Both the position numbers and the translations under genes were made by a program. Below are positions 14,049-29,238 of a DNA stretch of 64,000 nt, piece after piece. Origin of the DNA: Methanolobus sp. ZRKC5 (lineage in GTDB: Archaea; Halobacteriota; Methanosarcinia; Methanosarcinales; Methanosarcinaceae); contig NZ_CP151792.1 of assembly GCF_038446525.1 (NCBI RefSeq), positions 558,001 to 622,000 of the forward strand. The letters run 5' to 3'. The notes below the pieces were generated by a model. That model saw only the letters and a program-made list of their open reading frames with translations, made no database searches and was not told the origin of the DNA. Positions within the stretch are counted from its first letter, which is position 1. Each line of letters begins with the position of its first letter.

Positions 14049-15198
14049 GAGAGGATTTCGATATTCCCTCATTTTAGATCATTAAAGTATTCAAACTCAA
14101 TTATATCCTCTCATTTTTTATCATTTTGTTTATTTCTCTTCATTAATCCTTATTTTTAGTATAGCTCCCGCTATCCTAAATTACTCCTTTGGTTTTTAGT
14201 GTCCTCAATTGATGCAGATTAAAACAAAAAGCTGTCATCAACATTTTTGCATTCACTCTTTCTACAGTTGTAACAAGAACCTTTCTGGTTTTAAATATTT
14301 CTTTTGTCACTGCATACACTCTTTCGCAAGGGACTCTTTTCACACTTATTCTTTCATTTCTGAGGATATCCATTATTCCTAAAGGATGTCCTCTTACAGC
14401 TCGTTGCATTGTTGCTGCAAAACCTTTTGCTATTGCTCCAAAATATCCTTTATCTCTATACACCACTTCACCCTTTTCAGACAGATCAACCTGTGAATCG
14501 TGAAGTGATGCAGTTGTTGTCTCAAATCTTCTGATTAGTTCATAATCCTTATCAATAATTGTATGAAGTTTGTATCCAAAGTGAGATTTACCATTTTTCT
14601 TAGTCCAGGTTCCATCTTTGCTTCTTCTTGTTTTCGCATCTTTTCCTCTGAGTACATCTGCTTTTGCATGTCCTGGATCTGAGTGAATAAAAGTTGCATC
14701 CTGGATCATTCCTTTTTTAATCTTCAAACCAAGAGCATCAAGCTGATTCTGCATTTCATCCCACACCGCTTTTTCTTTACCATTGTCGATAATTCTCTTC
14801 CTGAATGACCAGACAGTTGTACTGTCTGGTACATATTCAGGAAATCCCAGGAATTTCCTAAAGGATATCCTGTCAATACACTGCTTTTCAAGCTCAGCAT
14901 CAGAAAGACCATGCCATTGTTGCAGAACAAGCATCTTGAACATTACAATAACATCAGCTTCAGGCCGTCCGCCTGAAGCTGTTCTGTTTATGTACATTGA
15001 CTCCAGAATAGGGCGAAAAGGCTTCCAATCTACTAAATATTCAATTTCAGCAAGCTTATCTCCGACAGATTGGAGACGCTTATATTCTTCATTTAAGGCA
15101 AAATCAGTAAAAGAATCCATAATAGTAAATTTGCTTTGCTATTATTTAAATTTTATTAAATTGTATGAGTATTGATGGTAGTTTATCGAAATCCTCTG
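14049..15198 (-). mobile_element. IS5-family insertion sequence, about 1.15 kb
   Basis: The ends share AGAGGATTTCGATA as an inverted repeat (14050-14063 and 15184-15197), and TA lies outside each end. A full transposase gene is inside. The right end stops only 4 bp before the stop codon of the MtaA-like gene, so the element sits directly downstream of the methyltransferase island. Confidence 0.85.
14176..15120 (-). CDS. IS5-family transposase, intact
   Basis: The protein of 314 residues has the N-terminal region of IS5 transposases (GGRPEADVIVMFKMLVLQQW, with the SDAELEKQCIDRISFRKFLG segment). The DDE residues are IQDATFIHSD, EVVYRDKGYFG and a C-terminal ERVYAVTKEIFKTRKV segment (Y-x2-R-x3-E-like). 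No frameshift or stop is present, so the element may be active. The start MDSFTDFALNEEYKRL is typical of this group. Confidence 0.92.
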   Translation of the reverse strand: MDSFTDFALNEEYKRLQSVGDKLAEIEYLVDWKPFRPILESMYINRTASGGRPEADVIVMFKMLVLQQWHGLSDAELEKQCIDRISFRKFLGFPEYVPDSTTVWSFRKRIIDNGKEKAVWDEMQNQLDALGLKIKKGMIQDATFIHSDPGHAKADVLRGKDAKTRRSKDGTWTKKNGKSHFGYKLHTIIDKDYELIRRFETTTASLHDSQVDLSEKGEVVYRDKGYFGAIAKGFAATMQRAVRGHPLGIMDILRNERISVKRVPCERVYAVTKEIFKTRKVLVTTVERVNAKMLMTAFCFNLHQLRTLKTKGVI

Positions 15199-15202
15199 TA
15201 GT

Positions 15203-16267
15203 CTAAACCACATATTTCAATGTGATGACTCGGGCCATTTTTTCAATATATTCATCCCTTGCCTTGACCATAGCCAGAAGATTCCTCAAAGGCATTTCAG
15301 GAGCTATACCACAGCCAGGAGCAAGTACATCAATATTTGTATCCAAGCATTGGAACGCCTCTTTTCTAACATCTTCTGGTGTCTTTGCATACAGAGTGTC
15401 TGATGTAGAAATATTTCCAATTATTGCTGTATTGTTTCTGTGTGCATAATCAATCACATATTTAAGATCCTTCACATTTTCTTCGATGCTTATAGCACTA
15501 AAACCACACTCAAGTATGTCTGGTATAATACTATCCACTTCCCCACATATGTGAAGTATACTGTGACCTCTTATGCTTTTATTGAACCTGATCAATGCAG
15601 GTTTTATAATTTGCCTGAATGCATCAGGACCTATCAGCTTCGGAGAAGACAGAGCATCTGCGATCACCACTGCATCTGCACCTGAAAGAAGATAGGCATT
15701 GGCACAAATTATGCAGGTATCGATGCATTTTTCGATGATTGTTTTTGCAATTTCAGGTTTCTTTAAAGTCAGCTTCAGAAACAATTTCATCCCGCAAAGA
15801 TAAGAAGCAAGATCAGCAGGACCTTCAATACCTGCAACTAAAGGCACCTGTAATCCCGAATCGTTCTTGAGAAGGGAAATTGCATCCATTACAACAGCTA
15901 TTCTTCCCCGTTCCAGCAGATCAGCGGGTATCTCAAACTCTTCAGGACTTTTCTCAAATGGATGGGTGAGCACTGCTGGTGTTCTTGCCTTTGTGCCTGG
16001 ATCTATCTGACAGCCAAGTGCCTCGCCAATCACCGTCACATCAAATGGAATACGTATGACCTCTAACTTTGCATCCGTGTGTAAGGAAGCTGCTAGTTTT
16101 GCCATTTGTTCCGGATTCCTGTCGGCTTCAGGCCTACAAGCCCCGGAAATGTCCATCAGGTCAAGTATTCCTGCTGTTGTGACCGTGCCTACAAGAGGAG
16201 TATCAACTTTTTTTCCATCAAGTATATCCTGGAATTTTTTTGAGATATTTGATGTTGATTTGCTAAT
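15203..16267 (-). CDS. MtaA/MtbA-like methylcobamide:CoM methyltransferase, AUU start
   Basis: The protein belongs to the uroporphyrinogen decarboxylase (URO-D) fold family and probably moves methyl from a corrinoid protein to coenzyme M. The zinc site is visible as HICGE, with the second Cys in LAPGCGIAPEMP. From the first ATG (16156) the protein has 317 residues and lacks the conserved N-terminal strand. That strand is present upstream in frame (KKFQDILDGKKVDTPLVGTV), but no ATG, GTG or TTG precedes it back to a TAG near 16318. A GGAGG ribosome binding site at 16275-16279 sits 7 nt before an ATT at 16267, which I take as the start (354 codons). It is the last gene of the island and may complete methyl transfer for it. 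Confidence 0.8.
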   Translation of the reverse strand: MSKSTSNISKKFQDILDGKKVDTPLVGTVTTAGILDLMDISGACRPEADRNPEQMAKLAASLHTDAKLEVIRIPFDVTVIGEALGCQIDPGTKARTPAVLTHPFEKSPEEFEIPADLLERGRIAVVMDAISLLKNDSGLQVPLVAGIEGPADLASYLCGMKLFLKLTLKKPEIAKTIIEKCIDTCIICANAYLLSGADAVVIADALSSPKLIGPDAFRQIIKPALIRFNKSIRGHSILHICGEVDSIIPDILECGFSAISIEENVKDLKYVIDYAHRNNTAIIGNISTSDTLYAKTPEDVRKEAFQCLDTNIDVLAPGCGIAPEMPLRNLLAMVKARDEYIEKMARVITLKYVV

Positions 16268-16360
16268 ATAACACCCTCCTTTTAAGCCACATGTAATTCC
16301 GGAATCTGCCTTGTGATCCTAAATGATGTTCTTATGTTCTTCACTTTAATAATGATATGG

Positions 16361-16675
16361 TCATAGGAACTCGATACTGACGCTTCCTGAATCTTTGGCA
16401 AGGTTGCCCGACATGAAACTTGCTTCGATGCAACAGACATGCATCACTGCACAGGGTACAAGACATGTAGAAGAACACCTGGCCTCTTTAGCCTTTTCCA
16501 TTATAAGATTATCTTTTATATCAAAAAGATCCATCATATCTACTTCCAGATGAGATGTCTTTTTGATTTTCTCACATTGAGTATCAATGTCCACAATTAT
16601 CTTTTTACCATCCTTTCTCCCCTTGATGATATGGGTGAATCCGCATATCTTGGAATTGACTTTCACTTCTGTCAT
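16361..16675 (-). CDS. Small Cys-rich protein of the methyltransferase island
   Basis: The protein has 104 residues: MTEVKVNSKICGFTHIIKGR at the start, then a basic and acidic mid part, then a Cys cluster (ARCSSTCLVPCAVMHVCCIE, six Cys within about 20 residues) and a final strand SVSIEFL. The Cys cluster suggests metal or Fe-S binding, or redox handling, but this is inference. I recall similar small proteins next to corrinoid methyltransferase genes in methanogens and acetogens. I cannot name the family with certainty. It lies 15 bp downstream of the activase gene and upstream of the MtaA-like gene, so it belongs to the same operon. Confidence 0.7.
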   Translation of the reverse strand: MTEVKVNSKICGFTHIIKGRKDGKKIIVDIDTQCEKIKKTSHLEVDMMDLFDIKDNLIMEKAKEARCSSTCLVPCAVMHVCCIEASFMSGNLAKDSGSVSIEFL

Positions 16676-16690
16676 TGAGATTCTCCTGGT

Positions 16691-18337
16691 TTATGCCGAA
16701 AGACCTGAAAGTGGTCTTTCGTCCATTATCTTTATTTCCTTGTAGTCAATTGCATGTACCGGACACGCATTTACACATCTCTTGCACGCCGTTCCCAGAC
16801 ATTTCAGGGTATTGTACTCTGCAAAGAGAGCATCATCAGCTTTTATAAATATTGCTTGTTCAGGACATTCTTTTTCACATCTGTGGCACATTATGCATCC
16901 AACCGCCAGTTCTTCAAGAGTGACACCTATGTCCTCTATCACTTCTACCCGACCTGTACCCGTCTCACTGATATCTTTCCGGACTCTTTTCTCAATGACC
17001 GGATCTTCAACGGGATCTGGCAGTTTAGGCAATTTATATACCTTCAAAAGTTTCCGGTATATTTCCATGGACATACCCTCTGTCCAGTATCCTAATTCAC
17101 ATACGTAAAACTTTTTGAAGGTGTCACTGGTTGCCATCATAAGATGATCCGCCTTTATATTTTCTGCTAATTTTATCAACAAATCAAGTTTCACCTTTTC
17201 AAGAACTATATCCCTTGCAAGGGACAAGGACGTGTTTCCAAATTGCACTGTTTTCTTTGTAAAATCCGGACATGATCCTATATTTCTTGCTTTGATAGGA
17301 TCAACATAGGTCCCGGAAGCACCGCTCATATACATGGTTTCAAGGTCTTCATAGGCAATCCCGGATTCATGTATCAGGGTCAACTGAGAAGCCCTTATAG
17401 CACCTATTGCTTTACCTGCTTCTATTATATCCTTTTCTGAAACCTCAATATCGTCACCCAGTATGATCTTCCCGTACTTTAGTTTAGGTGGACTGATTAT
17501 AATCCCTGTTTCGATTGCAAGAGACAATATGGAAATAAGACCGGTGCCTGTGATGCCATCAGGTACGGTATCCGATCCTTCAAGTATCATCCCACTTATC
17601 GGATCTATAAGATGTCCTTTTACAGTTTCCATGTTCTCATCCAGTACAGATATTCTCCAGAAACCATTTTCCAGATTAACATCTGTGATCGCTCCCGGAG
17701 CTGCAAGCATGCCACAACCTATACCCTGTCCTTCTATGGCAGGTCCGGCTGCAGCACTCCCTGTGATGATTCGGCTGCCTATCTTTATGGCCATCTCCGC
17801 GTTCGTTCCATAATCTGTTACAAGAGTTGGTTCTTCCTGTTCGAGAAAATCAGTCTCCACCATCATGGCAAGTGCGTCAGCACCGATCTCATGCTCAATA
17901 GCAGGCGGAACGATAATCTCACAATTCTCAAGGTTTAAAGTTCCATGGAATATATCCATGGCCGGGAATATCCGGCCATCACGTCTTACGTTATCTATGC
18001 CCAGTCTTTTTCGCATGTTTTCCCCTGCATAGGCCAGATCGCGTATCTCCGAATTCTGGAAAAGGGAGAGTTGTATCGGGTTACCACAGACAGCCATCTT
18101 TAATATCTGCGATGGATCTACATTGAATCCGTCAATCATTTTCCCGACAGCATCTATGATGATATTGTGTGCCACATCTTCTCCGATAGATATGGCAAAG
18201 TCAAGATGATCCGTCACATTCCCACCTGGCAACGGATGCTTCATTGTCATTGAAGTCTTAACAATTTCCTTTGTTTCTAGGTCTATCAATTGCGCCCTAA
18301 AGCCGCTGGTTCCCACATCTAATGCTATTCCGTACAT
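16691..18337 (-). CDS. RamA-like corrinoid protein reductive activase
   Basis: The 548-residue protein is an ATP-dependent reductive activator of corrinoid proteins (RACE/RamA type). It returns oxidised Co(II) to the active Co(I) state. An ASKHA-type ATPase fold starts at YGIALDVGTSGFRAQLID and includes TDYGTNAEMAIKIG and GSAAAGPAIEGQGIGCGM. The C-terminus has two ferredoxin-type clusters: CIMCHRCEKECP (about residues 480-491) and CLGTACKRCVNACP (about 510-523). C-terminal clusters are the mark of archaeal RamA; bacterial RACE proteins carry an N-terminal 2Fe-2S domain. The start codon lies one base after the stop of the upstream methyltransferase gene, so the two are probably co-translated. 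It could serve both corrinoid proteins of this window. Confidence 0.93.
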   Translation of the reverse strand: MYGIALDVGTSGFRAQLIDLETKEIVKTSMTMKHPLPGGNVTDHLDFAISIGEDVAHNIIIDAVGKMIDGFNVDPSQILKMAVCGNPIQLSLFQNSEIRDLAYAGENMRKRLGIDNVRRDGRIFPAMDIFHGTLNLENCEIIVPPAIEHEIGADALAMMVETDFLEQEEPTLVTDYGTNAEMAIKIGSRIITGSAAAGPAIEGQGIGCGMLAAPGAITDVNLENGFWRISVLDENMETVKGHLIDPISGMILEGSDTVPDGITGTGLISILSLAIETGIIISPPKLKYGKIILGDDIEVSEKDIIEAGKAIGAIRASQLTLIHESGIAYEDLETMYMSGASGTYVDPIKARNIGSCPDFTKKTVQFGNTSLSLARDIVLEKVKLDLLIKLAENIKADHLMMATSDTFKKFYVCELGYWTEGMSMEIYRKLLKVYKLPKLPDPVEDPVIEKRVRKDISETGTGRVEVIEDIGVTLEELAVGCIMCHRCEKECPEQAIFIKADDALFAEYNTLKCLGTACKRCVNACPVHAIDYKEIKIMDERPLSGLSA

Positions 18338-18338
18338 T

Positions 18339-19463
18339 TTAATTCCCCTGATTAAAATAAGATCTCATTGATTCCCAGAGAATTTCCATCTCTTCCTGAG
18401 GTGTATTCAGTGGTATCTCACATCCGGTGGATAGTATAAATCCCTTATCAGGAGCTGCATCCATACAACTCTTTACTTCGGCAGCGATATTGTCGAACCT
18501 TCCTGAATTGAATGTATAGGGATTGATATTTCCCATCAGGCATATACCTGAATCATTGAAGTCTTTGAAATCCCTGAAACAATATCTTTCACTGCAACCA
18601 ATGTGCTTATGGTTGTGGAGTTTCACGCAATCTACCCCATACTTTTTCCCGAGTGCCTCCACATTTCCGAAGAATAAATTCAAAGCATCGGGTTCAAGAG
18701 CCAGTTCCAGTTCATGGAATGCATGGTTTGCACAGTTATGCGATATTACATAAGCTCCTCTATCCTGTATGTGTGAATATAATTTCTTAGAATACTGAAA
18801 ACCAAATTCCTTTGCCATTTCCAGACTGAAAAGATCAGAAGTGCTGCCGCCGTTCTCAATAAATGCACCGTCTGCGCCTGCATCAAGCATCATATCTGCA
18901 AAGGTTATGCAACTATCAGTAAGGACATCAAGCAGTGCATGAAAATTATCCGGATTCTTCATCATTTCAATGAACATCCTGCTCCCTTCCATTAACTGGG
19001 AAGCAAGCATGAGAGGAGTAAGGAGCGCACCGCTTATGAAAACCTCATCTCCAAGCTCTTTTTTGAGCAAGGATATGGACTCTACAATGGTCTGTACTCT
19101 TTCTGAGCGTTCTATGGCAACCTGATCTATATTCTCATATTCTTTTGCAGACTTTAGAGGAAAACGGACTATTGAAGGATAAGCATCTTTCTTGATGTTT
19201 ATTTTCGCCCCAAAAGCCTCAGCTTCCACTAGCAAACATCCCCATGGAGACATTACATTGTCATGGTGATACATTTCCCTTGCTAATATCTGTGCTCTGG
19301 CAATGCCTTTTGCAGAATAGTAAACATCCTCCATGCTTGCATTCATCTGCTCAAGCACCGCATCACCAGCGCCGAACCACAAATAACCCAGTGGTGTTCT
19401 GTCCACTTCTTTTAATTCAAGAGCGTTGATAAAACGCTCATTTGAAGTCATCTCATCAGGCAT
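18339..19463 (-). CDS. URO-D family methyltransferase (stand-alone)
   Basis: The protein of 374 residues has the URO-D fold, with the start SNERFINALELKEVDRTPLGYLWFG. The zinc ligand motif is VISHNCANHAF, with the second Cys in LSTGCEIPLNTP near the end. It therefore probably activates a thiol or another methyl donor/acceptor for transfer to or from a corrinoid. It is much more divergent than the MtaA-like protein of the same operon, and closer in its ends to the methyltransferase half of the fused protein at 23206-25110. Whether it works on the substrate side or the CoM side is not clear. It lies 12 bp downstream of the chaperonin-like gene. Confidence 0.87.
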   Translation of the reverse strand: MPDEMTSNERFINALELKEVDRTPLGYLWFGAGDAVLEQMNASMEDVYYSAKGIARAQILAREMYHHDNVMSPWGCLLVEAEAFGAKINIKKDAYPSIVRFPLKSAKEYENIDQVAIERSERVQTIVESISLLKKELGDEVFISGALLTPLMLASQLMEGSRMFIEMMKNPDNFHALLDVLTDSCITFADMMLDAGADGAFIENGGSTSDLFSLEMAKEFGFQYSKKLYSHIQDRGAYVISHNCANHAFHELELALEPDALNLFFGNVEALGKKYGVDCVKLHNHKHIGCSERYCFRDFKDFNDSGICLMGNINPYTFNSGRFDNIAAEVKSCMDAAPDKGFILSTGCEIPLNTPQEEMEILWESMRSYFNQGN

Positions 19464-19475
19464 TTAACTCCCCCA

Positions 19476-21110
19476 TCAGGACTTTTTCAATACGATCCTA
19501 TCAATTCTCAACATATTGCTTACAGCCTCGGTAGCCGCGATAATAGCCATTTGTTTAATGCTGAAAGAATCATATACTGGAGGGTTATTGGCAACGACAT
19601 TTCGTGTAAGATCAATTCTGCTGTCGATTCCCTTATTATAGGAATTGAGCATTTTCGTTATCACATCCACTTCATTGAGACCCACGTTTCGTGCGAGTGT
19701 TCTGGGAATCTCTTCAAGGGCGTTTGCATATTCGATAACTGCGAGTTGCTCTTTCCCTTCAATGGTGGAAGAATACTGCCTGAGCATCTGTGAGAGCACA
19801 AATTCGATATCCCCTCCCCCTCTGACAGCAAGAGGATTCTTCAGTATGAATGCAGCATTATTGACTGCATCATCTACTGCTTCCTCGATCTTTTCAAGAC
19901 CATACCTGAAAGGCTCCCATATCATGATCGTGGATATCAGCTGATCACTGACAGAAAGGAAAAGGAAATGCTCCTCGTTTCTTTTTTCGACCTTCGCCTC
20001 ATCGGCAAAACCCAGATCATGAGGGAGTATATCATCCCTGATGGAAAGAATGCTTGCACCTGTTGCCTTTGAGACCATCTCCATATCCCTTATCTTCAGT
20101 TTCTGGAAAAGCAGGATACCATGTTTTGCAAGTGATGCTTCAACAGATTCATCCACATCTCCTTCACAAAATACAAGGTTAGCCCCGGAAGCAATTATCT
20201 TCTGTGACATGGCTTTCAGATTTCGTTCCTGTCCATGGAAGATAAGCCTTGGATCGCCGAGATCATCTATTCTTAGATTGCGCTGGGAATTTATGATCTT
20301 GCTCTCAAATTTCACATTGCCATTAATCATAAGGACGCTTGCATTTTCCAAATGAAAAGGCATGTCAGATCTTGCAGGTCTTTCATCCAGGACCATTCCT
20401 GAAATAGATTCTATAGATGGGGCACCTACCTTTTTTATAACTTTGACATAATCGTTTAGATCTATGTGACCATCACCATAGGTATCCCTGATCTTTGAAA
20501 GTGTCTTCAGAACGATATCAGCTATTATCCGGGCCTGATGGGGTTCAGCCCCTTTACTCAGGCTGGCATTCTCTATGACAGAATGAAGATCACTGTCAGA
20601 ACTTATCCGAATACTCTCATAGTTGAGGATATCGTACACTTTGTTCAGAGCAAGCTGGTATCCTTTTATGATAGTTGTTGGATGCAGGCCATAATCCACG
20701 AGTTTAGCAGCATTCTCGATAAGAGAAGCAGCGATTATCACTGCGGTCTTTGTACCATCACCACATACTCTGTCCATGGACATGGCAAGTTCTTTGAGGG
20801 ATGTGACCACAGGATGTAACACATCGATCTGTTCGATTATGGTCTTTCCGTCACTTGTCAGGTAAACGTCATCTGTAGGACTAATTATTATCTTGCTCGA
20901 TCCACAGGGTCCAAAAGAGGATATAAGTAGATCCTTAATATCCCTGGAAGCATGTAGCATCTCGTATATCAGACCATCTTCTTCAACATCATCCTTGATT
21001 CCAATACGATTGCGCACACTCTGACGCAGAGCATCCATATTATCCAGTGCATTCATAGTGTTCATGTTTCCTGCATTCATATTTCCTGCATATTCCAGTG
21101 AAGTGCTCAT
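19476..21110 (-). CDS. Divergent group II chaperonin (thermosome-like)
   Basis: The protein of 544 residues is full length for a thermosome subunit. ATPase motifs are present but altered compared with the standard thermosome of this window (48815-50434): GPKG becomes GPCG (residues 67-70), LTNDG becomes LTSDG (84-88), and GDGTTSAV becomes GDGTKTAV (117-124). The catalytic Asp region (EEAVDDAVNNAA), the GGGDIE turn and the region EGKEQLAVIEYANALEEIPRTLA are kept. The N-terminus is rich in Met and Asn, and there is no Gly-Met tail. The start ATGA overlaps the stop of the hydantoinase-like gene, which indicates translational coupling. A dedicated folding or assembly machine for the methyltransferase or activase proteins is likely. 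Divergent extra Hsp60 lineages are known in Methanosarcina acetivorans. Confidence 0.88.
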   Translation of the reverse strand: MSTSLEYAGNMNAGNMNTMNALDNMDALRQSVRNRIGIKDDVEEDGLIYEMLHASRDIKDLLISSFGPCGSSKIIISPTDDVYLTSDGKTIIEQIDVLHPVVTSLKELAMSMDRVCGDGTKTAVIIAASLIENAAKLVDYGLHPTTIIKGYQLALNKVYDILNYESIRISSDSDLHSVIENASLSKGAEPHQARIIADIVLKTLSKIRDTYGDGHIDLNDYVKVIKKVGAPSIESISGMVLDERPARSDMPFHLENASVLMINGNVKFESKIINSQRNLRIDDLGDPRLIFHGQERNLKAMSQKIIASGANLVFCEGDVDESVEASLAKHGILLFQKLKIRDMEMVSKATGASILSIRDDILPHDLGFADEAKVEKRNEEHFLFLSVSDQLISTIMIWEPFRYGLEKIEEAVDDAVNNAAFILKNPLAVRGGGDIEFVLSQMLRQYSSTIEGKEQLAVIEYANALEEIPRTLARNVGLNEVDVITKMLNSYNKGIDSRIDLTRNVVANNPPVYDSFSIKQMAIIAATEAVSNMLRIDRIVLKKS

Positions 21111-23041
21111 ATTACCCCCTTAGGGGAACCAACGGCTACCCCTACGATCTTTGTCTCAAGGGGCACTGTTCCAATACTCCCGATATTATTACATTCAAGA
21201 TCGAACCTTACATTATCCATACTTAATCCGTAGCCGGACATATACTCTGAAACTGTGCTGTTGACAAGGGAATTGGCCATGTCAAGAGCACCCTGATAAT
21301 CATCGAACATTTGTCTTCCTTTTTCAGAGAATAACAGATACTGTGAACTGCCCGAGCCTGCTGGCCTTATCAGTACTTCTTCCCTGTAAACCACATTACC
21401 GACAAGGGCACCTACAGCATTACCCACTTCATGGTACTGCGGAAGCCTTATGTCCGCATCAATGAAATATTTCATATCTTTCAAATATGGAGCTACCGGA
21501 GCACCCACCATTACCACGGGGGTCTTTATCGTGAATTTCATTAGTTCTGTGCCGCTCAATATTTTTTCCAGATCTGTTTTCTTCACTTTGTCTGCACAGT
21601 GTGCAATGAGATTGAGTACGATCTCTCTGGCAACATCTTCTTTGAGTTTGGCGCAGAGATCAAAGGGTTCCATAGAAGTGTATTCTGAAAGGATCGAGGC
21701 CCCAAGCATCGATGCACTGGAATCCCATCTTGTATAGGCACCGGTAACATGCAGGACATCGGTCGGGGTGAAGCCCACTTGTTTTACATATCTTTTCTGT
21801 ATGAGCTTTCTCAGGATACCTTCGAACATCAGAGCATGTTTATTTGTCTTAGAGGCAATATCCGATATAGAGGATGGTTCGTCTGTAATTGCATCGAATA
21901 TTTCCATCTCTTCTACCTCAAGTTCAGAGGTTGGCAGGGAATGAGATTTTGCTCCATTGGATATGAAGAATGTTGTTGGCTGGATGATATCGTTCATTAT
22001 GCGACTTGAAATCTTTTCAGCATTCTGCAATTTCCTTACGATGGACGGGAATTCAGTAGCACAAAGACATAGGGGTATGACCCTGTTAGGTCCGATATGC
22101 GCTTTTTCCTTCATCCATACATGACTGTCTCCTCCAATGGCAGAAGTGTTCATTTTAATAGCTTTGACCATTGTATCCCAATCACCGACAACAGCACCGG
22201 AACTGCTGATGGCAGGCATGCCATCAAGGATCATAGAAATATCCGTACTTGTACCTCCAACATCTATGGTCAGGCACTCCTTTAGACCTGCTAGATGTGC
22301 AGCGCCCAGCAGGCTCGCAGCAGGTCCGGAAAAAATGGATTCAACTGGTTTTTTTAGTGCCTCTTCGATCCTGACAAGCGATCCGTCACATCTCATCATC
22401 ATTAAGACCGAATTGATGTTCTTATCCTGCATCACTGACCTTACAGACCTTATGAACTGGTCTATTACCGGAATCAGCTGGGCATTAAGAAGTGCTGTCA
22501 AAGTCCTTTCGTAAGCTCCAAGTTCCATGGAAAGTTCATGTCCGCAAACAACAGGGAGATCTGTCAGCTCCTGGATCATCTCTTTGATCATCAGTTCATG
22601 TTCCGGGTTGCGTACTCCGAAATACGATGATACAGCAAAGGAAGATACCTTGCGTTGATTCATTGTAACAAAATCTTTCACATTCTTCAGGTTGCCCAGT
22701 GGTTCTGCTTCATTTCCATCGGCATCATGACCGCCTTCTATGGAAAGGATATGATCTGTCGGAATTTTTCGGGATATATTATAGCCAATAAGTATGAGAC
22801 CTGCAGGGTACCCTTTATCCTCCAATGTGGTGTTGGTAGCGAGTGTGGTGGATACTGAAGTGAATCTCACATTAGCAAGATATTCGGCTTTAAGGCCATC
22901 AATTGAATTTATTATGCCCTTGATCAGATCAGGGTAAGTAGTAAGCGATTTGTTTGAATCTATTATTGATCCATCTTCAAGATCCATGATTACGGCATCT
23001 GTATATGTGCCGCCAGTATCTATTCCAAGCCCGAGATTCAT
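21107..23041 (-). CDS. Hydantoinase/oxoprolinase A-like ASKHA protein
   Basis: From the ATG at 23041 the protein has about 644 residues. The N-terminal hydantoinase A domain starts NLGLGIDTGGTYTDAVIMDL, and a second phosphate-binding motif TIDVGGTSTDISMILDG follows in the centre. Both are typical of HyuA and of ATP-using activators with the ASKHA fold. A winged-helix-like insertion (AITDEPSSISDIASKTNKHA) lies in the middle. Typical HyuA enzymes open hydantoin or oxoproline rings with ATP and need a HyuB partner. No HyuB gene is here, so a role as ATPase partner of the corrinoid system is possible. GGTGAT 4 nt upstream supports the start; the frame extends upstream to 23119 without family similarity. 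It is translationally coupled to the chaperonin gene. Confidence 0.87.
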   Translation of the reverse strand: MNLGLGIDTGGTYTDAVIMDLEDGSIIDSNKSLTTYPDLIKGIINSIDGLKAEYLANVRFTSVSTTLATNTTLEDKGYPAGLILIGYNISRKIPTDHILSIEGGHDADGNEAEPLGNLKNVKDFVTMNQRKVSSFAVSSYFGVRNPEHELMIKEMIQELTDLPVVCGHELSMELGAYERTLTALLNAQLIPVIDQFIRSVRSVMQDKNINSVLMMMRCDGSLVRIEEALKKPVESIFSGPAASLLGAAHLAGLKECLTIDVGGTSTDISMILDGMPAISSSGAVVGDWDTMVKAIKMNTSAIGGDSHVWMKEKAHIGPNRVIPLCLCATEFPSIVRKLQNAEKISSRIMNDIIQPTTFFISNGAKSHSLPTSELEVEEMEIFDAITDEPSSISDIASKTNKHALMFEGILRKLIQKRYVKQVGFTPTDVLHVTGAYTRWDSSASMLGASILSEYTSMEPFDLCAKLKEDVAREIVLNLIAHCADKVKKTDLEKILSGTELMKFTIKTPVVMVGAPVAPYLKDMKYFIDADIRLPQYHEVGNAVGALVGNVVYREEVLIRPAGSGSSQYLLFSEKGRQMFDDYQGALDMANSLVNSTVSEYMSGYGLSMDNVRFDLECNNIGSIGTVPLETKIVGVAVGSPKGVI

Positions 23042-23170
23042 TGTTATCACCTTTTGTATGGAGGGTTTATGTGGAGGTGGAGTGGTTTGCCTCTTCTGTG
23101 GAGATAGGAGGTTTACCACCCAATGGATATAGACCTCATAAAGTGATTTTTAAATCACGTATGAGAATAA

Positions 23171-23206
23171 AAAAAGGAAAAGCAGGGGGAAGTGATAGTT
23201 CCTGCT
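23171..23206 (-). terminator. Hairpin with T-run inside the operon (attenuator)
   Basis: On the minus strand, AGCAGG (overlapping the stop codon of the fused methyltransferase gene) pairs with CCTGCT after a 14-nt loop, and a T-rich tail follows. It separates the first structural gene from the accessory genes and could lower their expression relative to it. Confidence 0.55.
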
Positions 23207-25110
23207 TATCCGAATATCTTTTTCTGAAGGTCAGGACCCAGTTCCTTTGCTACATCTACCATTGCCTTCACGGTCGAAAGAGGTCCTCCTGGAGGAATCT
23301 CACAACCAGACGTCATTACATACTTGGATTGCAATCCACTCTCCTTGAGTACGGGGAGCACACCTTCAAGCAGATCCTTTGTGTCATCCTTTATCTTCTG
23401 AACACCTGCAGGAGTATTATCCATGAACTCTATCGGATTGAGCTCTCCCATCATACAACATGTATCACCATATTTTGGAATTAGGTCTGCATAGTTCTGT
23501 GAACCCTTGCCTCTTAGCTTTGGATAGTATGCGTAGCTGAACAACTGAGTTCCGAATTTCTTGATCTGTGTGTCAAAGTGTACTGCATCTGCACAGTTGT
23601 GTATCATGTAGGGCTGGTCGTATTTCTTGAATATTGGCAAATGCTGGTCATGTACGAACTTTCCATCGAACTTCCAGTAGTCCTCCTCGCTCATGATCAC
23701 ATTGTTGGACCAGAGGTTATCAATACACAATGCATTACAGGCACTTTCTTCAAAGAACAGTTCAGACACCTGGCAGATGTAATCTGTACATTTCTGGACT
23801 GCTTCAAGTACCACATCAGGATGTGTCTTCATGTCCATCAGGACACGGTCTGCACCCATAAGTTGGGTAAGGGTAAGCAGGGGACCTTCATGGAATCCGA
23901 CAAATGGTGTATCAAGTTCCTTGTTAAGTTTCTCAGTAGCCGCCTTGGAAGCCATTATAAGCTCATAGGCACGAGTACCTTCCTTAACCTCAGGAACTTC
24001 TATACTTTCATATGCCTCAAGGTGTCCTTCGGATGAAGGTGTGTCATCTTCAGGGTACTTGATCTTGCATCCAAAGTCAGCTGATGTTGCAGAAAGGTCG
24101 ATGAGCCCTACGAACATGTCCGTATCCAGATATTTGGATCCCAGGTAAGCACTCTCAACGAACGCATTGATGTCAGTAGCATACTCCTTGTAGTTGACAT
24201 CGGCAAATTTCCTCAAAACTCCACAGGCTAGTGGATATACCGGTAATCTGTCGACCTTTTTATCGCCCAGTGAAGCCAGGGTCCTGTCCATATGGGTCAT
24301 TTCTTCTTTCGTCTTGACAGCTACACTCTCAAAATCTGCAATTATTTGCTTTGCAGTTTCCAGACCTACATCTGTCTTTCCTTTTACCGTCTTTTTAGAC
24401 AGAATCTCTCTGTATTTGACCTTGCCAAGTGAGATTTTCTCCTCGCTCCATCTCTGTTCAGCAGGGGCAAGTTTGCTTACTGCATCCTTTGCCCATTCCG
24501 TAGCTGCAAGGGAATCAGGATGTGTAGAGTCTGCACCAATCTTTTCTGCGAATTCTGGGGAAACAGGTGCTCCTCCTATCATGACTATAAGGGAATCTCT
24601 GATACCTTCCTCCTGCAGCATCTCAATTACCCTTTCCATGTTGGTCATGGTAGTTGTCATTAAGGCACTCATGGAAACCAGGTCTGCTTTCTTCTCCTTC
24701 GCCACTTCAATGAATTTCTCGACTGGCACATCGTGACCCAGATCAATCATATCAAAACCGGATGCGGACATCATTGTCTTGACAAGGTTCTTTCCGATAT
24801 CATGGACATCTCCCTCGATGGTTCCTATAACACCCACGGAACGCTCTGCTCCTGCCTCTACTTTCATATGTGGGGTCAGTATATCCATACCTGCATACAT
24901 GGCACCAGATGCGATGAGCAGGTGTGGCACAAAGGCTTCACCCTTTTCATACTTGTCACTTACAATGATCATTCCTTTTGCAAGTCCGTCCACAATTGCC
25001 TCGTAAGGATCCACTCCGTCTTCAAGGGCTTTTTGTGCAAGTTCTTCTGCAAGGTCGTCGTCACCGTCGACTACAGCTTCCGCTAATTGGTTCAAGATTG
25101 CTGCTTTCAT
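23206..25110 (-). CDS. Fused corrinoid protein and URO-D methyltransferase
   Basis: From the ATG at 25110, with GGAGG 6 nt upstream, the protein has 634 residues. Residues 1-210 form a corrinoid protein of the MtaC/MtbC type. It has a helical cap, then the base-off B12 motif GDVHDIGKNLV (D101, H103, G106), SMSALMTTTM and IGGAPVS. After a linker (about 215-280) comes a URO-D methyltransferase domain with zinc ligands HNCADAV and TSGCEIPPGG. This design matches the MtsD/MtsF/MtsH proteins that use methylated sulfides in Methanosarcina. The substrate here is not proven. It is the first structural gene of the island, preceded by an intergenic region with repeated palindromes, and followed by an intercistronic hairpin. 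Confidence 0.9.
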   Translation of the reverse strand: MKAAILNQLAEAVVDGDDDLAEELAQKALEDGVDPYEAIVDGLAKGMIIVSDKYEKGEAFVPHLLIASGAMYAGMDILTPHMKVEAGAERSVGVIGTIEGDVHDIGKNLVKTMMSASGFDMIDLGHDVPVEKFIEVAKEKKADLVSMSALMTTTMTNMERVIEMLQEEGIRDSLIVMIGGAPVSPEFAEKIGADSTHPDSLAATEWAKDAVSKLAPAEQRWSEEKISLGKVKYREILSKKTVKGKTDVGLETAKQIIADFESVAVKTKEEMTHMDRTLASLGDKKVDRLPVYPLACGVLRKFADVNYKEYATDINAFVESAYLGSKYLDTDMFVGLIDLSATSADFGCKIKYPEDDTPSSEGHLEAYESIEVPEVKEGTRAYELIMASKAATEKLNKELDTPFVGFHEGPLLTLTQLMGADRVLMDMKTHPDVVLEAVQKCTDYICQVSELFFEESACNALCIDNLWSNNVIMSEEDYWKFDGKFVHDQHLPIFKKYDQPYMIHNCADAVHFDTQIKKFGTQLFSYAYYPKLRGKGSQNYADLIPKYGDTCCMMGELNPIEFMDNTPAGVQKIKDDTKDLLEGVLPVLKESGLQSKYVMTSGCEIPPGGPLSTVKAMVDVAKELGPDLQKKIFG

Positions 25111-25460
25111 AATTTTCCTCCAAAAGTTAGATTGGTTTTTACAGTGATCTTTCATTTCTCACTGTTAACAAAGAACAGTATTTTAGTTGAGGTATATATC
25201 ATAACCTCCGGTTATTTATTAACGCCGTTAACATCAAAAACCACACATTATTTTGAGTGGGGTCGTAATCCTATGAATGAACGCCCTATAATTAACGCCG
25301 TTAACAAAGGAACAGAACTCCAATAAGATTAATGACTTTAATCAAATCAATGGCTTTGATCTGATGAATGCAAAAGTAAAACGCATTCATGCAATATATT
25401 TCAAAGTCAAAACAAATAGAATTATTCTGGAGAAAATATCTCCTATATGATTGCCGAATC
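25111..25460 (-). promoter_or_regulatory. Control region of the fused methyltransferase gene
   Basis: This gene-free stretch of 350 bp holds three kinds of signal. A TATA-like string GATATATACC (25191-25200, minus strand) would place transcription start near 25170. The 14-mer TTAACGCCGTTAAC occurs at 25219-25232 and 25292-25305 on the plus strand, with a related GTTAACAAAGAACAG at 25164-25178. The last copy at 25292 also continues into GTTAACAAAGGAACAG. TAACC-TCC-GGTTA lies at 25202-25214. Further upstream, ATGAATGC/GCATTCAT (25364-25390) forms a perfect 8-bp inverted repeat that may end the regulator transcript. All assignments are from pattern only. Confidence 0.6.
25219..25305. promoter_or_regulatory. 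Paired palindromic operator-like sites
   Basis: Two identical copies of TTAACGCCGTTAAC (25219-25232 and 25292-25305) lie 73 bp apart upstream of the TATA-like box. Each is a palindrome with 6-bp arms around one base. The adjacent Msr-like HTH regulator is the obvious candidate to bind them. Confidence 0.6.
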
Positions 25461-26246
25461 TCAGATACCTGTAACTTCTTGTGACATCTTTCTGAAGAAC
25501 TGATACATGTCTTCTCCCCACACCAATGCGTTCATTTCAAAACTCATCATAGCATGATTGTGAAACATGCCGTTCTTATAGAACAAAGTCAATGAGAGGA
25601 ATCTGTCTGTTACTACACTGGATGCAAAACCTATATCGTCTTTGCACACAAAAAGTTCCGTATTTTCCATCCCGAGATAATCCTGCAATTGTTCGAAATA
25701 CTCCGTTTCAAATCTTTCAAACACAGGCTCCGTTATGACGAGTGAAATTCGGACACCTTTTCTGGCAAGTTCAATGTACTTATAGGGATAAGCTGGACTG
25801 AATGAAGAAGAAATTTCCATGATGTATTTTGACTGTACGAGATTTTCAGTGAACCTTTTCGGTAATTCATACATGCGATTAAGTTCCGGCTCAACAACTT
25901 CACAGGAACCCAGTTCTTCTATTCTCTCAAGAAGATATATCGGAATATTTTTAACTTTATGATTTTCCCAGTATTGTTTATTATCTTCGAAGACCATTAA
26001 GATGTGTAAAAGAGGAACCATTTTTTTTACGATCACCTCTCCAAAACTCGAAAGCCTGTAATAATCATTTTCATAAAGTATTATACCCTGATCGATGAGG
26101 ATCTTAATCTGTGTCATCATGGCACTGGAAGTGACATTGAGTGTATTTTTAATCTCATCGATGTTCATAGGTTTTTCTATCAGCAGGATGAGCAGATCTT
26201 TTCTTTTGTCGGATAGAAAGAGAATACCTAACAAAGCTAATTTCAT
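25461..26246 (-). CDS. Msr/FilR1-like winged-helix regulator (DUF1724)
   Basis: The 261-residue protein has an N-terminal winged helix (DLLILLIEKPMNIDEIKNTL, then VTSSAMMTQIKILIDQGII) and a C-terminal DUF1724-type domain (SKYIMEISSSFSPAYPYKYI ... VITEPVFERF). This layout is that of the methyltransferase-specific regulators MsrF, MsrC and MsrG of Methanosarcina, which activate methyl-sulfide methyltransferase genes, and of FilR1. It is encoded directly upstream of the fused corrinoid/methyltransferase gene and overlaps the kinase gene by 4 bp (ATGA), so kinase and regulator are made together. It probably controls the fused gene through the palindromes at 25219-25305. Confidence 0.85.
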   Translation of the reverse strand: MKLALLGILFLSDKRKDLLILLIEKPMNIDEIKNTLNVTSSAMMTQIKILIDQGIILYENDYYRLSSFGEVIVKKMVPLLHILMVFEDNKQYWENHKVKNIPIYLLERIEELGSCEVVEPELNRMYELPKRFTENLVQSKYIMEISSSFSPAYPYKYIELARKGVRISLVITEPVFERFETEYFEQLQDYLGMENTELFVCKDDIGFASSVVTDRFLSLTLFYKNGMFHNHAMMSFEMNALVWGEDMYQFFRKMSQEVTGI

Positions 26247-28795
26247 TTTATCATCTCACGTTTTGACAAATTGTGGGAATCATCTTCCACAATACCCATT
26301 GGAAGCCTTATGTGGAATATAGTTCCTTTACCCTTTTCACTTTCGATCCATATCTCGCCTTTATGTGCAAGGATTATATCCTTACAGATGTACAGACTGG
26401 ATTCAAGTCCCTGATACATTCGACTCAGTGAGTCCTCCACCTGGTAGAATTTCTGGAAGATATGCGGTATAAGGTCTTTCTGTATACCCGGTCCTGTATC
26501 ACTTATCCTCAAGTGTAGATGGTCACCTTCTTCACTTACATCTATGTTTATCCTTCCACCTTCAGGAGTGAATTTGATTGCATTATCTATAAGAATTATC
26601 AATGTTTCCGTTAGTTTGTCCTTATCAGATCTTATTGCCGGCAGCCCATCGGACACATCCACTTCTAAAGTAATTTTTTTCTCATCTATCAGCAGTATCA
26701 GATTCATCACAGCTTCTGATATCAGTTTGTCCACTTGTGTCCTGGAAAAGGTATATTCTATCTTTCCTGCTTGCTCCTGGCTCATATACAGAAGTGAATT
26801 TACCAAGCGTTTTAACCTTGCAGAGTTGAGCAATACGGAATTGATAGCCTTTGCCTGTTGGTCATCAATTGCCTTGATCATCTCATCATCAAGGACACTA
26901 CGCCCTGAGTACTCAGGGCCGTATATCTCTTCCAGCCTTTCTGCAATGAATTCTGTTTTCATCCTGCTGATGGACCTTAGTTCCTCATTTGCCATCTTTA
27001 GTTCATCAGAATATTGCTTTAAGGCATCTTCTATTTGTTTTCTTTGAATGAGGCTCCACATGCCCTGCATCAATAAGGTAAGCTGGCGTAGATCCGATTC
27101 ATTGTATTCCTCTACTTTATTGCCAACACCTGCAACGGCAACTATATGGTCACCATCGATTATCGGGATATTCATGTGCCTTGTAAGTTCCACGTGATCC
27201 CCGGGGTATCCTTTTTTCATAGGATTGGGAAGAGAGTAATCATTTGTTATTATGGGTTCACGCTGCTTTACTGCTTCACCCCACAACCCGGTGGTCTTGA
27301 TAGGATATACGAAATGTTTGTTTTTTATACCACATTCCTTCATGGCACTTTTCGACCAGGAATGCATGATGAGCGCAGTTTCATCAGCATTCATAAATGC
27401 AAGATATCCAAGTGTACTTTCAGTAAGTCTCACAGCTTCTTCCCTTGCAAAATCCGTGATCTCTTTTAAAGAGGCACCGGTCATACTGTTAAGTTTAACA
27501 AGCGCTTCAAGCCTTTCCTCTTCAAGACGACGTTTCCTTTCGGCCCTTTTGCGCTCACGGATGTCTCTGGCGACTGACAAAATGGTTTTTTTCCCGTCAT
27601 AGATTATGAACCGTGCACTGACTTCCAGCGGTATCTTTCTACCATCCTTATGTATCGCCTCTGTCTCATATATCGCTCTTCCATCCGTTTCAATCTCCTT
27701 CATAAGTTTTGATACGCGGTGTACATCTTTTGATGGAATAATGTCTGAAGGATATGCTCTTAACATCTCATTCTTGCTATAACCCAATGTATCTACTACA
27801 GCTTGGTTCACAGCGATTGCTTTCCCATCGAGTTCGCTGATATATATCTGGTCGTTTACATTGTTGAGAATGATCTTGAGTTTTTGTTCAGATTCAAGAG
27901 CGCTGTCTAATACCCTCTTGTTGTTTATTGCGATAGCTGCGAGATTGGCGTTTGCTTTAAGAATATCGAGCTCTTCTTTTGCAGGTTTGTGTGGCTTATG
28001 GAAGTACATTCCGAAAGTCCCAAATATCTCATCATTCGAACTTATTATGGGCTCACAACAACTGGCCCTCAGGCCTGCCTTAGCCGCAAGTTCCTTAAGG
28101 CCTTTCCAGAAAGGATGCTCCATTATGTCTTCTACAACAACCCTTTTCCCTGTGTAAACAGCTGTTGAACAGGAGCCAATGCCGTCACCTATGGGTAGCC
28201 CTTCAATAGCTTTTTTGTAGAAATCTGGAAGATGAGGAGCAATAACATGAATCAGATGTTTCTTTTCCTTGTCCAATAACATGACAAAACTTATTGCTTC
28301 CGGCACAATTTTCCCTGTTGATTTCACCAGACGCATAAGGACCTCATCCAGAGTTGCACCCGAAGCCAGGGATTCAAGAACTTGATTGCGGCAATCAATA
28401 ATTGCTTCCGAGAGCTTTCGCTGACTTATATCCAGGATGATGCCTTCATAATACTGGATATTGCCATCCCCATCCCTTCGAATGATGGTTCTATCATCAA
28501 TGCACCTGGTCTCACCTGATGCTGTCAGTATCCTGTACTCCTGGATGAAATTATCAACATCTGTTTCAGAGTATTCTGTAACTTCTCTACGTACACGTTC
28601 AATGTCATCAGGATGGATAATGTCGTCATGCTTTAATCTACCCGAAAGGAAATCCTCGGGTGAGTATCCAAACTGTCTGACATTCTCTGAGACAAATTCT
28701 ACTGGCCACCCGCTTTCTGGTCTCCATATGAAAATTGTTACAGGGCTGTCATTAATTACTTTTGCAATTTCTGAATTTACGTCGAGCTGTGCCAT
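26243..28795 (-). CDS. MsmS-like PAS-GAF-PAS-GAF sensor kinase
   Basis: The 850-residue protein is soluble. Domains in order: PAS (about 10-130, with EFVSENVRQFGYSPEDFLSG), GAF (about 140-300), PAS (about 305-420), GAF (about 430-600), a helical dimer region and a HATPase domain with N box LIILIDNAIKFTPEGG and G box ISDTGPGIQKDL. The usual SHELRTP histidine box is missing; the corresponding part reads MKTEFIAERLEEIYGPEYSG. The same alternating layout is found in MsmS and RdmS, redox sensors linked to methyl-sulfide genes in Methanosarcina acetivorans. MsmS binds haem by a Cys in its second GAF domain; here that domain has a Cys in AMKECGIKN. It is coupled to the regulator gene by a 4-bp overlap. 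Confidence 0.88.
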   Translation of the reverse strand: MAQLDVNSEIAKVINDSPVTIFIWRPESGWPVEFVSENVRQFGYSPEDFLSGRLKHDDIIHPDDIERVRREVTEYSETDVDNFIQEYRILTASGETRCIDDRTIIRRDGDGNIQYYEGIILDISQRKLSEAIIDCRNQVLESLASGATLDEVLMRLVKSTGKIVPEAISFVMLLDKEKKHLIHVIAPHLPDFYKKAIEGLPIGDGIGSCSTAVYTGKRVVVEDIMEHPFWKGLKELAAKAGLRASCCEPIISSNDEIFGTFGMYFHKPHKPAKEELDILKANANLAAIAINNKRVLDSALESEQKLKIILNNVNDQIYISELDGKAIAVNQAVVDTLGYSKNEMLRAYPSDIIPSKDVHRVSKLMKEIETDGRAIYETEAIHKDGRKIPLEVSARFIIYDGKKTILSVARDIRERKRAERKRRLEEERLEALVKLNSMTGASLKEITDFAREEAVRLTESTLGYLAFMNADETALIMHSWSKSAMKECGIKNKHFVYPIKTTGLWGEAVKQREPIITNDYSLPNPMKKGYPGDHVELTRHMNIPIIDGDHIVAVAGVGNKVEEYNESDLRQLTLLMQGMWSLIQRKQIEDALKQYSDELKMANEELRSISRMKTEFIAERLEEIYGPEYSGRSVLDDEMIKAIDDQQAKAINSVLLNSARLKRLVNSLLYMSQEQAGKIEYTFSRTQVDKLISEAVMNLILLIDEKKITLEVDVSDGLPAIRSDKDKLTETLIILIDNAIKFTPEGGRINIDVSEEGDHLHLRISDTGPGIQKDLIPHIFQKFYQVEDSLSRMYQGLESSLYICKDIILAHKGEIWIESEKGKGTIFHIRLPMGIVEDDSHNLSKREMIK

Positions 28796-29068: not shown

Positions 29069-29143
29069 TGGGCCTAACCGGATTCGAACCGGTGATCGCT
29101 CGGTTATGAGCCGAGCGCTCTAACCTGGCTAAGCTACAGGCCC
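29069..29143 (-). tRNA. tRNA with CAT anticodon, probably tRNA-Ile2
   Basis: The minus strand folds into a cloverleaf of 75 nt: acceptor GGGCCTG pairs with TAGGCCC, the anticodon arm is CTCGGCTCATAACCGAG (anticodon CAT), and the T arm is CCGGTTCGAATCCGG. The G1-C72 acceptor and an anticodon stem like that of archaeal tRNA-Ile(GAT) favour tRNA-Ile2, read with agmatidine at C34, over elongator Met. Discriminator base is A. The assignment between Ile2 and Met is not certain. Confidence 0.9.
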
Positions 29144-29165
29144 AGTATGAAAAGAAGATATGAAG

Positions 29166-29238
29166 CGCCGCAAACAGGGCTCGAACCTGTGACATTCTGG
29201 TTAACAGCCAGACACTCTACCAACTGAGTTATTGCGGC
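29166..29238 (-). tRNA. tRNA-Asn (GTT anticodon)
   Basis: The minus strand folds as a 73-nt tRNA with acceptor GCCGCAA pairing with TTGCGGC, anticodon arm CTGGCTGTTAACCAG (anticodon GTT) and T arm ACAGGTTCGAGCCCTGT. It lies 22 bp upstream of the other tRNA, so the two are probably co-transcribed. A TTTAAAAG string about 50 bp upstream may be the TATA box. Confidence 0.95.

Follow-up and report, generated by a model that had tools for sequence, protein, structure and literature searches.

A divergent group II chaperonin in a predicted mtsD operon of Methanolobus, and fused Mts methyltransferases as its candidate clients

Why should an archaeal operon for methyl transfer carry a chaperonin gene of its own? 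The question is raised by a stretch of 64,000 nucleotides (hereafter 'the window', at its full length) from the 3.05-Mb single-contig genome of Methanolobus sp. ZRKC5 (NZ_CP151792.1, positions 558,001 to 622,000), in which nine genes follow one another on the minus strand (window positions 15203–28795) in the order sensor kinase, Msr regulator, fused corrinoid protein/methyltransferase, hydantoinase-like protein, chaperonin, URO-D methyltransferase, RamA, DUF6951 protein, and MtaA. Group II chaperonins, to which the one encoded here belongs, are usually regarded as generalists. Here, we set out the evidence for the reading that we favour, with a probability of roughly 0.6: that this would be an mtsD operon serving methanogenesis on dimethyl sulfide and holding, among other maturation genes, one for a dedicated folding or assembly chaperonin.

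Gene linkage was surveyed in 186 genomes of the order Methanosarcinales, and a profile of the chaperonin clade was searched against 393 genomes of the phylum, among which it matched in Methanosarcinaceae only. The surveyed genomes are kin rather than independent samples, and a Fisher test on co-occurrence is therefore not to be taken literally. One of them (G148) we take to be Methanosarcina acetivorans C2A, presuming also that its loci at 1.019 Mb and 5.41 Mb are those of mtsD (MA0859) and mtsF (MA4384), respectively.

The fused enzyme and its chaperonin neighbour

The fused protein consists of an N-terminal corrinoid domain (pyl_corrinoid, 220 bits against a cut-off of 215) and a C-terminal URO-D domain, and its DVHDIG cobalamin motif and its HxC and GC zinc motifs are invariant in 54 relatives. 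It is 80% identical to the G148 protein at the mtsD position and 56% identical to that at the mtsF position, and a tree places it with MtsD rather than with MtsF. Identity to the G148 counterparts is 55–56% for the kinase (mtsD- and mtsH-position loci) and 59% for the Msr/FilR1 regulator (mtsD locus). Judged by sequence comparison, the fused protein is an MtsD ortholog and, because the kinase and the regulator also match those at the G148 mtsD locus, the island is an mtsD operon, with dimethyl sulfide as its most likely substrate. A methylated sulfur compound had been suggested by an earlier reading of the window's letters (the sequence-only reading), and is likely since the fused protein is an MtsD ortholog. 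The same reading had placed the island outside the known Mts systems, which is not supported: in the presumed M. acetivorans, mtsD and mtsF are both flanked by the same chaperonin, and mtsD by the hydantoinase-like gene as well. MtsD prefers dimethyl sulfide as substrate (PMC7374477), and mtsD has been reported at 78–81% identity in seven Methanolobus genomes (PMC10762971) and as enriched in Methanolobus-dominated saltmarsh incubations (PMC10689795).

The chaperonin keeps close company with the fused enzyme. It is present in 47 and the fused protein in 53 of the surveyed genomes, all 47 falling within the 53 and none (0/186) having the chaperonin without the fused protein. Of 60 chaperonin copies, 58 have a fused gene no more than 6 kb away, and the other two sit at contig ends, on contigs that start at the hydantoinase-like gene. 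Chance adjacency was rejected given a gene order conserved across about 50 loci. Where the fused gene is mtsF, the chaperonin comes after it and no hydantoinase-like gene adjoins the chaperonin, so the fused protein is its constant partner; that the chaperonin belongs with the fused corrinoid enzyme, as had been proposed, is upheld by co-occurrence in 47 of 47 genomes. Six genomes have a fused gene and no chaperonin match. In three of these (G161, G166, and G170, 99% complete), contigs break 48–75 residues into the chaperonin; two (G122 and G175) are only 70% and 60% complete; and in G123 the fused genes lie at contig ends. True absence of the chaperonin from genomes with a fused gene was rejected, most cases being contig breaks inside the chaperonin gene, probably caused by near-identical copies.

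Such copies also bear on which fused enzyme is served. The presumed M. acetivorans has two extra chaperonins, one next to mtsD and one next to mtsF, and these are 97% identical, against 55% for MtsD and MtsF. Where mtsD- and mtsF-type loci share a genome (G148, G155, G160, and G080), the chaperonin pairs are 93–99.6% identical and cluster in the tree, whereas MtsD- and MtsF-type fused proteins are 53–55% identical and form two deep groups; exceptions to this near-identity are an additional G081 copy (88%) and the divergent third copy of G160 (55.7%). The chaperonin copy is broken at the mtsF-type locus in G154 and G157 and at the mtsD-type locus in G158 and G168, but each of these genomes keeps an intact chaperonin elsewhere, and both copies are never broken. 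The frameshifted or remnant copies are at L126, L125, L090, and L091. Because the copies are near-identical while MtsD and MtsF diverge, and because one copy decays while another stays intact, the fused Mts proteins appear to share one interchangeable chaperonin, most simply read as a helper of which at least one copy must remain.

The chaperonin had been called divergent from the window alone, and this description is borne out: it falls below the NCBI archaeal thermosome cut-offs (336 against 450 bits and 332 against 671 bits) and is encoded beside three ordinary thermosome genes in the same genome. One of these three (window positions 48815–50434, plus strand) is unlinked to the operon. Members of the clade are 43–95% identical to the window protein, against approximately 32% for ordinary thermosomes; in a comparison of Methanolobus with M. 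acetivorans, identity is 47% for the chaperonin and 80% for the fused enzyme. The chaperonin is under purifying selection (ratio of nonsynonymous to synonymous substitution rates, dN/dS, of 0.10–0.14). Its AlphaFold2 model, with a predicted local distance difference test score (pLDDT) of 84, resembles Mm-cpn at a template modelling score of about 0.85; the lid-protrusion segment is present in the alignment, with residues 271–284 modelled at pLDDT <50. Across 54 clade members, the ATP-site Asp residues are invariant, including the catalytic one in the intermediate domain, which aligns with D386 of Mm-cpn, as is the Lys of the KG motif. The thermosome motif GDGTT reads GDGTK in 54/54, the DGA motif reads DGK in 53/54 and DGR in the remaining one, and the alignment shows the C-terminal GGM tail to be absent from the clade. 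These features describe a divergent group II chaperonin that looks ATPase-competent. Since it never occurs without the fused protein in the surveyed genomes, it is probably a dedicated folding helper of that enzyme.

The hydantoinase-like protein and competing roles for the chaperonin

The hydantoinase-like gene directly precedes the chaperonin gene at mtsD loci, with a 4-bp overlap (ATGA) that is conserved in Methanolobus. Its product retains both ASKHA phosphate motifs (GIDTGGTYTD and DVGGTSTD) and matches Hydant_A_N and the first half of Hydantoinase_A (profile positions 1–144 of 291 only), and the nearest folds to its AlphaFold2 model (pLDDT 84) are acetophenone/acetone carboxylase subunits and N-methylhydantoinase. 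A true hydantoinase was rejected for want of a HyuB partner, the sole HyuB in the genome being fused within one unrelated protein; neither is the protein RamA, as profile searches found no Fe–S domain and no RACo_C_ter match. Nor is it specific to the operon, contrary to what had been supposed: close paralogs occur in 104/186 genomes, many without any fused protein, and in two genomes examined several lie beside corrinoid genes such as mtaC and others beside no methyltransferase. Paralogs near genes for methanol or other corrinoid methyltransferases are those at L115, L117, L118, and L120, which suggests a wider role in methylotrophy; paralog loci without a corrinoid methyltransferase are L116 (G000, 2.69–2.71 Mb), L121 (G148, 4.33–4.34 Mb), and L114. 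In the operon the protein perhaps assists corrinoid loading or release. The sequence-only reading had joined chaperonin and hydantoinase-like protein in one system, to be abandoned if relatives had their genes scattered without methyltransferases; the chaperonin half of that proposal stands and the hydantoinase half is weakened.

Several observations weigh against a dedicated folding chaperonin. In at least three cases, a fused gene within contiguous sequence lacks a neighbouring chaperonin (the mtsH-position copies of G148 and G080, at 68%, and a second copy in G090), each genome having the chaperonin elsewhere. Two substitutions in the nucleotide site (T to K in GDGTT and A to K after DG) might change the ATPase activity of the chaperonin. 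MtsF/CmtA has reportedly been studied as recombinant protein, which would suggest that it can fold at least in part without this help, and the hydantoinase-like family is far broader than the operon.

Two other accounts also involve the neighbouring ATPase. In the first, which we regard as tentative, the chaperonin would be a maturation chamber: the apo form of the fused Mts protein would be held in the cage, the ASKHA ATPase would deliver or seat the corrinoid, and the two new lysines in the ATP loops would retune the cycle for cofactor insertion. If true, a group II chaperonin would have become specialised for a single family of cofactor-bearing enzymes. In the second, which we hold to be just as doubtful, chaperonin and hydantoinase-like ATPase would act with RamA on inactivated or corrinoid-free fused enzyme, remodelling it rather than folding it in the first place. 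ASKHA ATPases such as RamA/RACo, EutA, and DdrA reactivate cobalamin enzymes, the operon encodes RamA, and in Methanolobus translation of the hydantoinase-like gene and of the chaperonin gene is coupled; however, the hydantoinase-like gene does not adjoin the chaperonin at mtsF loci, the ATPase model is like hydantoinases and carboxylases and not like RACo, and, to our knowledge, RamA serves the methylamine and methanol systems with no chaperonin of this kind.

A role in coping with thiols, sulfide, or other stresses, in which the chaperonin would be one more subunit of the ordinary thermosomes and would share no more than its regulation with mts, is unlikely. Hexadecamers, which may be of mixed composition, are formed by every archaeal group II subunit studied (PMC5220055), and three ordinary subunits are at hand in this genome; yet a general stress role would not predict strict pairing with fused Mts proteins and absence elsewhere, and the clade, without the GGM tail, deviates at ATP-site positions that are invariant in thermosomes. 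Less likely again is a different client—the hydantoinase-like ATPase, RamA, or the second URO-D protein instead of the fused enzyme. The ATGA coupling with the hydantoinase-like gene is kept in 12/12 loci (L038–L049), but the genes for these candidates are missing beside the chaperonin in many loci, the fused gene being always present, and hydantoinase-like genes thrive in genomes that have no chaperonin of this clade. Most improbable is a scaffold or storage cage for Mts enzymes with folding activity lost, which would suit the two new lysines at the phosphate-binding loops and the missing tail but not the invariant ATP-site Asp and KG-motif Lys or the purifying selection.

Operon layout, expression signals, and a proposed course of events

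The nine genes and the families that the sequence-only reading had assigned to them were recovered by profile searches (Table 1), and three of its gene starts were moved.

Table 1. Features of the predicted mtsD operon, in window coordinates.
Feature	Position	Strand	Basis
PAS/GAF sensor kinase, RdmS/MsmS type	26243..28795	-	Pfam PAS, GAF, HATPase_c
Msr/FilR1-type transcriptional regulator	25461..26246	-	FilR1_middle, E=3e-37
Twin TTAACGCCGTTAA palindromes, putative operator of fused gene	25219..25304	none	motif search
mtsD (by sequence), fused corrinoid + zinc-type URO-D, 634 residues	23206..25110	-	pyl_corrinoid above cut-off, URO-D
Terminator-like hairpin + T-tract after mtsD	23161..23205	-	sequence
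Hydantoinase-A-like ASKHA ATPase, 644 residues	21107..23041	-	Hydant_A_N + half Hydantoinase_A
Divergent group II chaperonin, 544 residues	19476..21110	-	Cpn60_TCP1, 386 bits
Second URO-D methyltransferase, MtaA/CmuA-like	18339..19463	-	URO-D, 216 bits
RamA-type reductive activase of corrinoid proteins	16691..18337	-	TIGR04270, 758 bits vs cut-off 500
Cys-rich DUF6951 protein	16361..16675	-	PF22263, 80.7 bits
MtaA-type methylcobamide:coenzyme M methyltransferase	15203..16264	-	NF040654 MtaA_Meth, 402.5 bits vs cut-off 400

The most likely start of the fused gene is at 25110 rather than 25155, a GGAGG preceding its ATG; that of the hydantoinase-like gene, at 23041, agrees with the starts of relatives; and that of MtaA lies further upstream than had been thought. 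The MtaA frame stays open for approximately 35 codons upstream of its first ATG (16156), to about 16264, and positions 1–32 of the NF040654 profile map to this extension. The frame has no ATG, GTG, or TTG upstream of 16156 (window positions 16157–16264), and an AGGAGG stands 7 nt ahead of an in-frame ATT. The start is either this ATT codon or a mutated start codon beside an IS5 element. The gene for an IS5-type transposase (14176–15120) is directly downstream of mtaA, and copies in the same genome (L114:13004–13948 and L117:16029–16973) are 100% identical to it.

Spacing in the operon is tight: the kinase and regulator genes overlap by 4 bp, the chaperonin gene is followed after approximately 12 bp by that of the second URO-D protein, and this after 1 bp by that of RamA. 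The second URO-D protein carries HNC and TGCE motifs (the HxC..GC zinc motif) and occupies this place only in most Methanolobus copies of the operon. The RamA gene product, with a RACo-type ASKHA domain and a C-terminal Fe–S domain, clears its curated cut-off, and the DUF6951 gene is close to the chaperonin in 23/54 loci. A gene for a CobW/COG0523-like GTPase follows the chaperonin at both G148 mts loci (L081:11475–12578 and L083:7429–8532); homologs are found in 22/54 chaperonin loci, and the window operon has none. Directly upstream of the operon are two transfer RNA (tRNA) genes (29069–29238), and mts islands may insert there. An RNA search of the window returned these two tRNAs only, with no riboswitch or other known RNA in the operon.

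As to regulation, the kinase has an HATPase_c domain and no HisKA match in Pfam, and RdmS (MA0863) and MsmS are likewise kinases without an H-box (PMC11784639); in these respects it resembles the RdmS/MsmS kinases (MA_type 2). Upstream of mtsD, the two TTAACGCCGTTAA palindromes (25219–25231 and 25292–25304) are the sole matches in the window, where 0.04 would be expected, and also genome-wide. Across several genera the motif turns up again ahead of fused genes, and in other species GATCAAAGSCTTTGATC dyads take a comparable position before the fused gene. These sites are putative Msr operators. In six genomes searched, the palindrome motif is not everywhere limited to mts loci. The 164-bp gap between mtsD and the hydantoinase-like gene opens with the terminator-like hairpin (GCAGG..CCTGC) and T-tract, and a run of at least five T occurs within 40 nt of the fused-gene stop in 18/29 loci; an element of this kind would hold the helpers below the level of the enzyme. 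In M. acetivorans, MA4384–MA4394 (the mtsF–mtaCB2 stretch) respond together, as one cluster, to HdrED depletion (PMC11619418). The chaperonin lies within this responsive range because, in the G148 gene order, it sits between mtsF and mtaCB2.

On the reading of a dedicated folding chaperonin, events might run as follows. The kinase and the Msr regulator would sense conditions and switch on mtsD, perhaps via the twin palindromes; the fused protein would then be made in bulk, the terminator-like element keeping the downstream helpers lower. The chaperonin would enclose the large two-domain Mts protein and fold or assemble it, a single chaperonin type serving MtsD and MtsF alike, and the ASKHA ATPase would probably aid cofactor loading or conformational release. 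RamA would reduce Co(II) to Co(I), and MtaA-like proteins would hand methyl groups to coenzyme M.

Comparison with known systems

The Mts system itself is known, and the proposed dedicated chaperonin is the new part, with uncertain priority. MtsD, MtsF, and MtsH of M. acetivorans have the same domain order, motifs, regulators, and kinase type, to which the Methanolobus operon adds RamA, DUF6951, the second URO-D protein, MtaA, and the tight coupling of chaperonin and hydantoinase-like gene. The operon's own activase is RamA, and the hydantoinase-like protein is not. The latter has its fold and both ATP motifs in common with HyuA and the ASKHA subunits of acetophenone and acetone carboxylases, but, in contrast to HyuA, it lacks a HyuB partner and matches the Hydantoinase_A profile only over its first half.

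Subunits 4 and 5 among the group II chaperonins of M. acetivorans were reportedly treated by Maeder et al. in 2005. One source credits this species with a total of five such subunits, with 4 and 5 grouping together, and describes a set of five in this one species only (PMC6420498). The two clade members of G148 fit these reported subunits, whereas the clade as found here extends to 47 genomes and is tied to mts loci. The literature searched states no role for subunits 4 and 5 and makes no mention of a link between chaperonin and mts, the original papers on these subunits, on MtsDFH genetics, and on CmtA being outside its reach. The tie to fused Mts enzymes thus provides a specific candidate client for subunits 4 and 5, testable in a genetically tractable methanogen, and, if true, it would also bear on attempts to express Mts enzymes, which have a share in the production of methane from dimethyl sulfide in marine sediments.

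The chaperonin resembles MmoG, a divergent chaperonin whose gene accompanies those of soluble methane monooxygenase and for which folding of that enzyme has been proposed (PMC9324122). In both cases a chaperonin is encoded with one catabolic C1 metalloenzyme but, unlike MmoG, which is bacterial and GroEL-like (group I), the operon chaperonin is archaeal and of group II. If the reading favoured here is true, operon-encoded chaperonins such as MmoG would have a group II counterpart in archaea.

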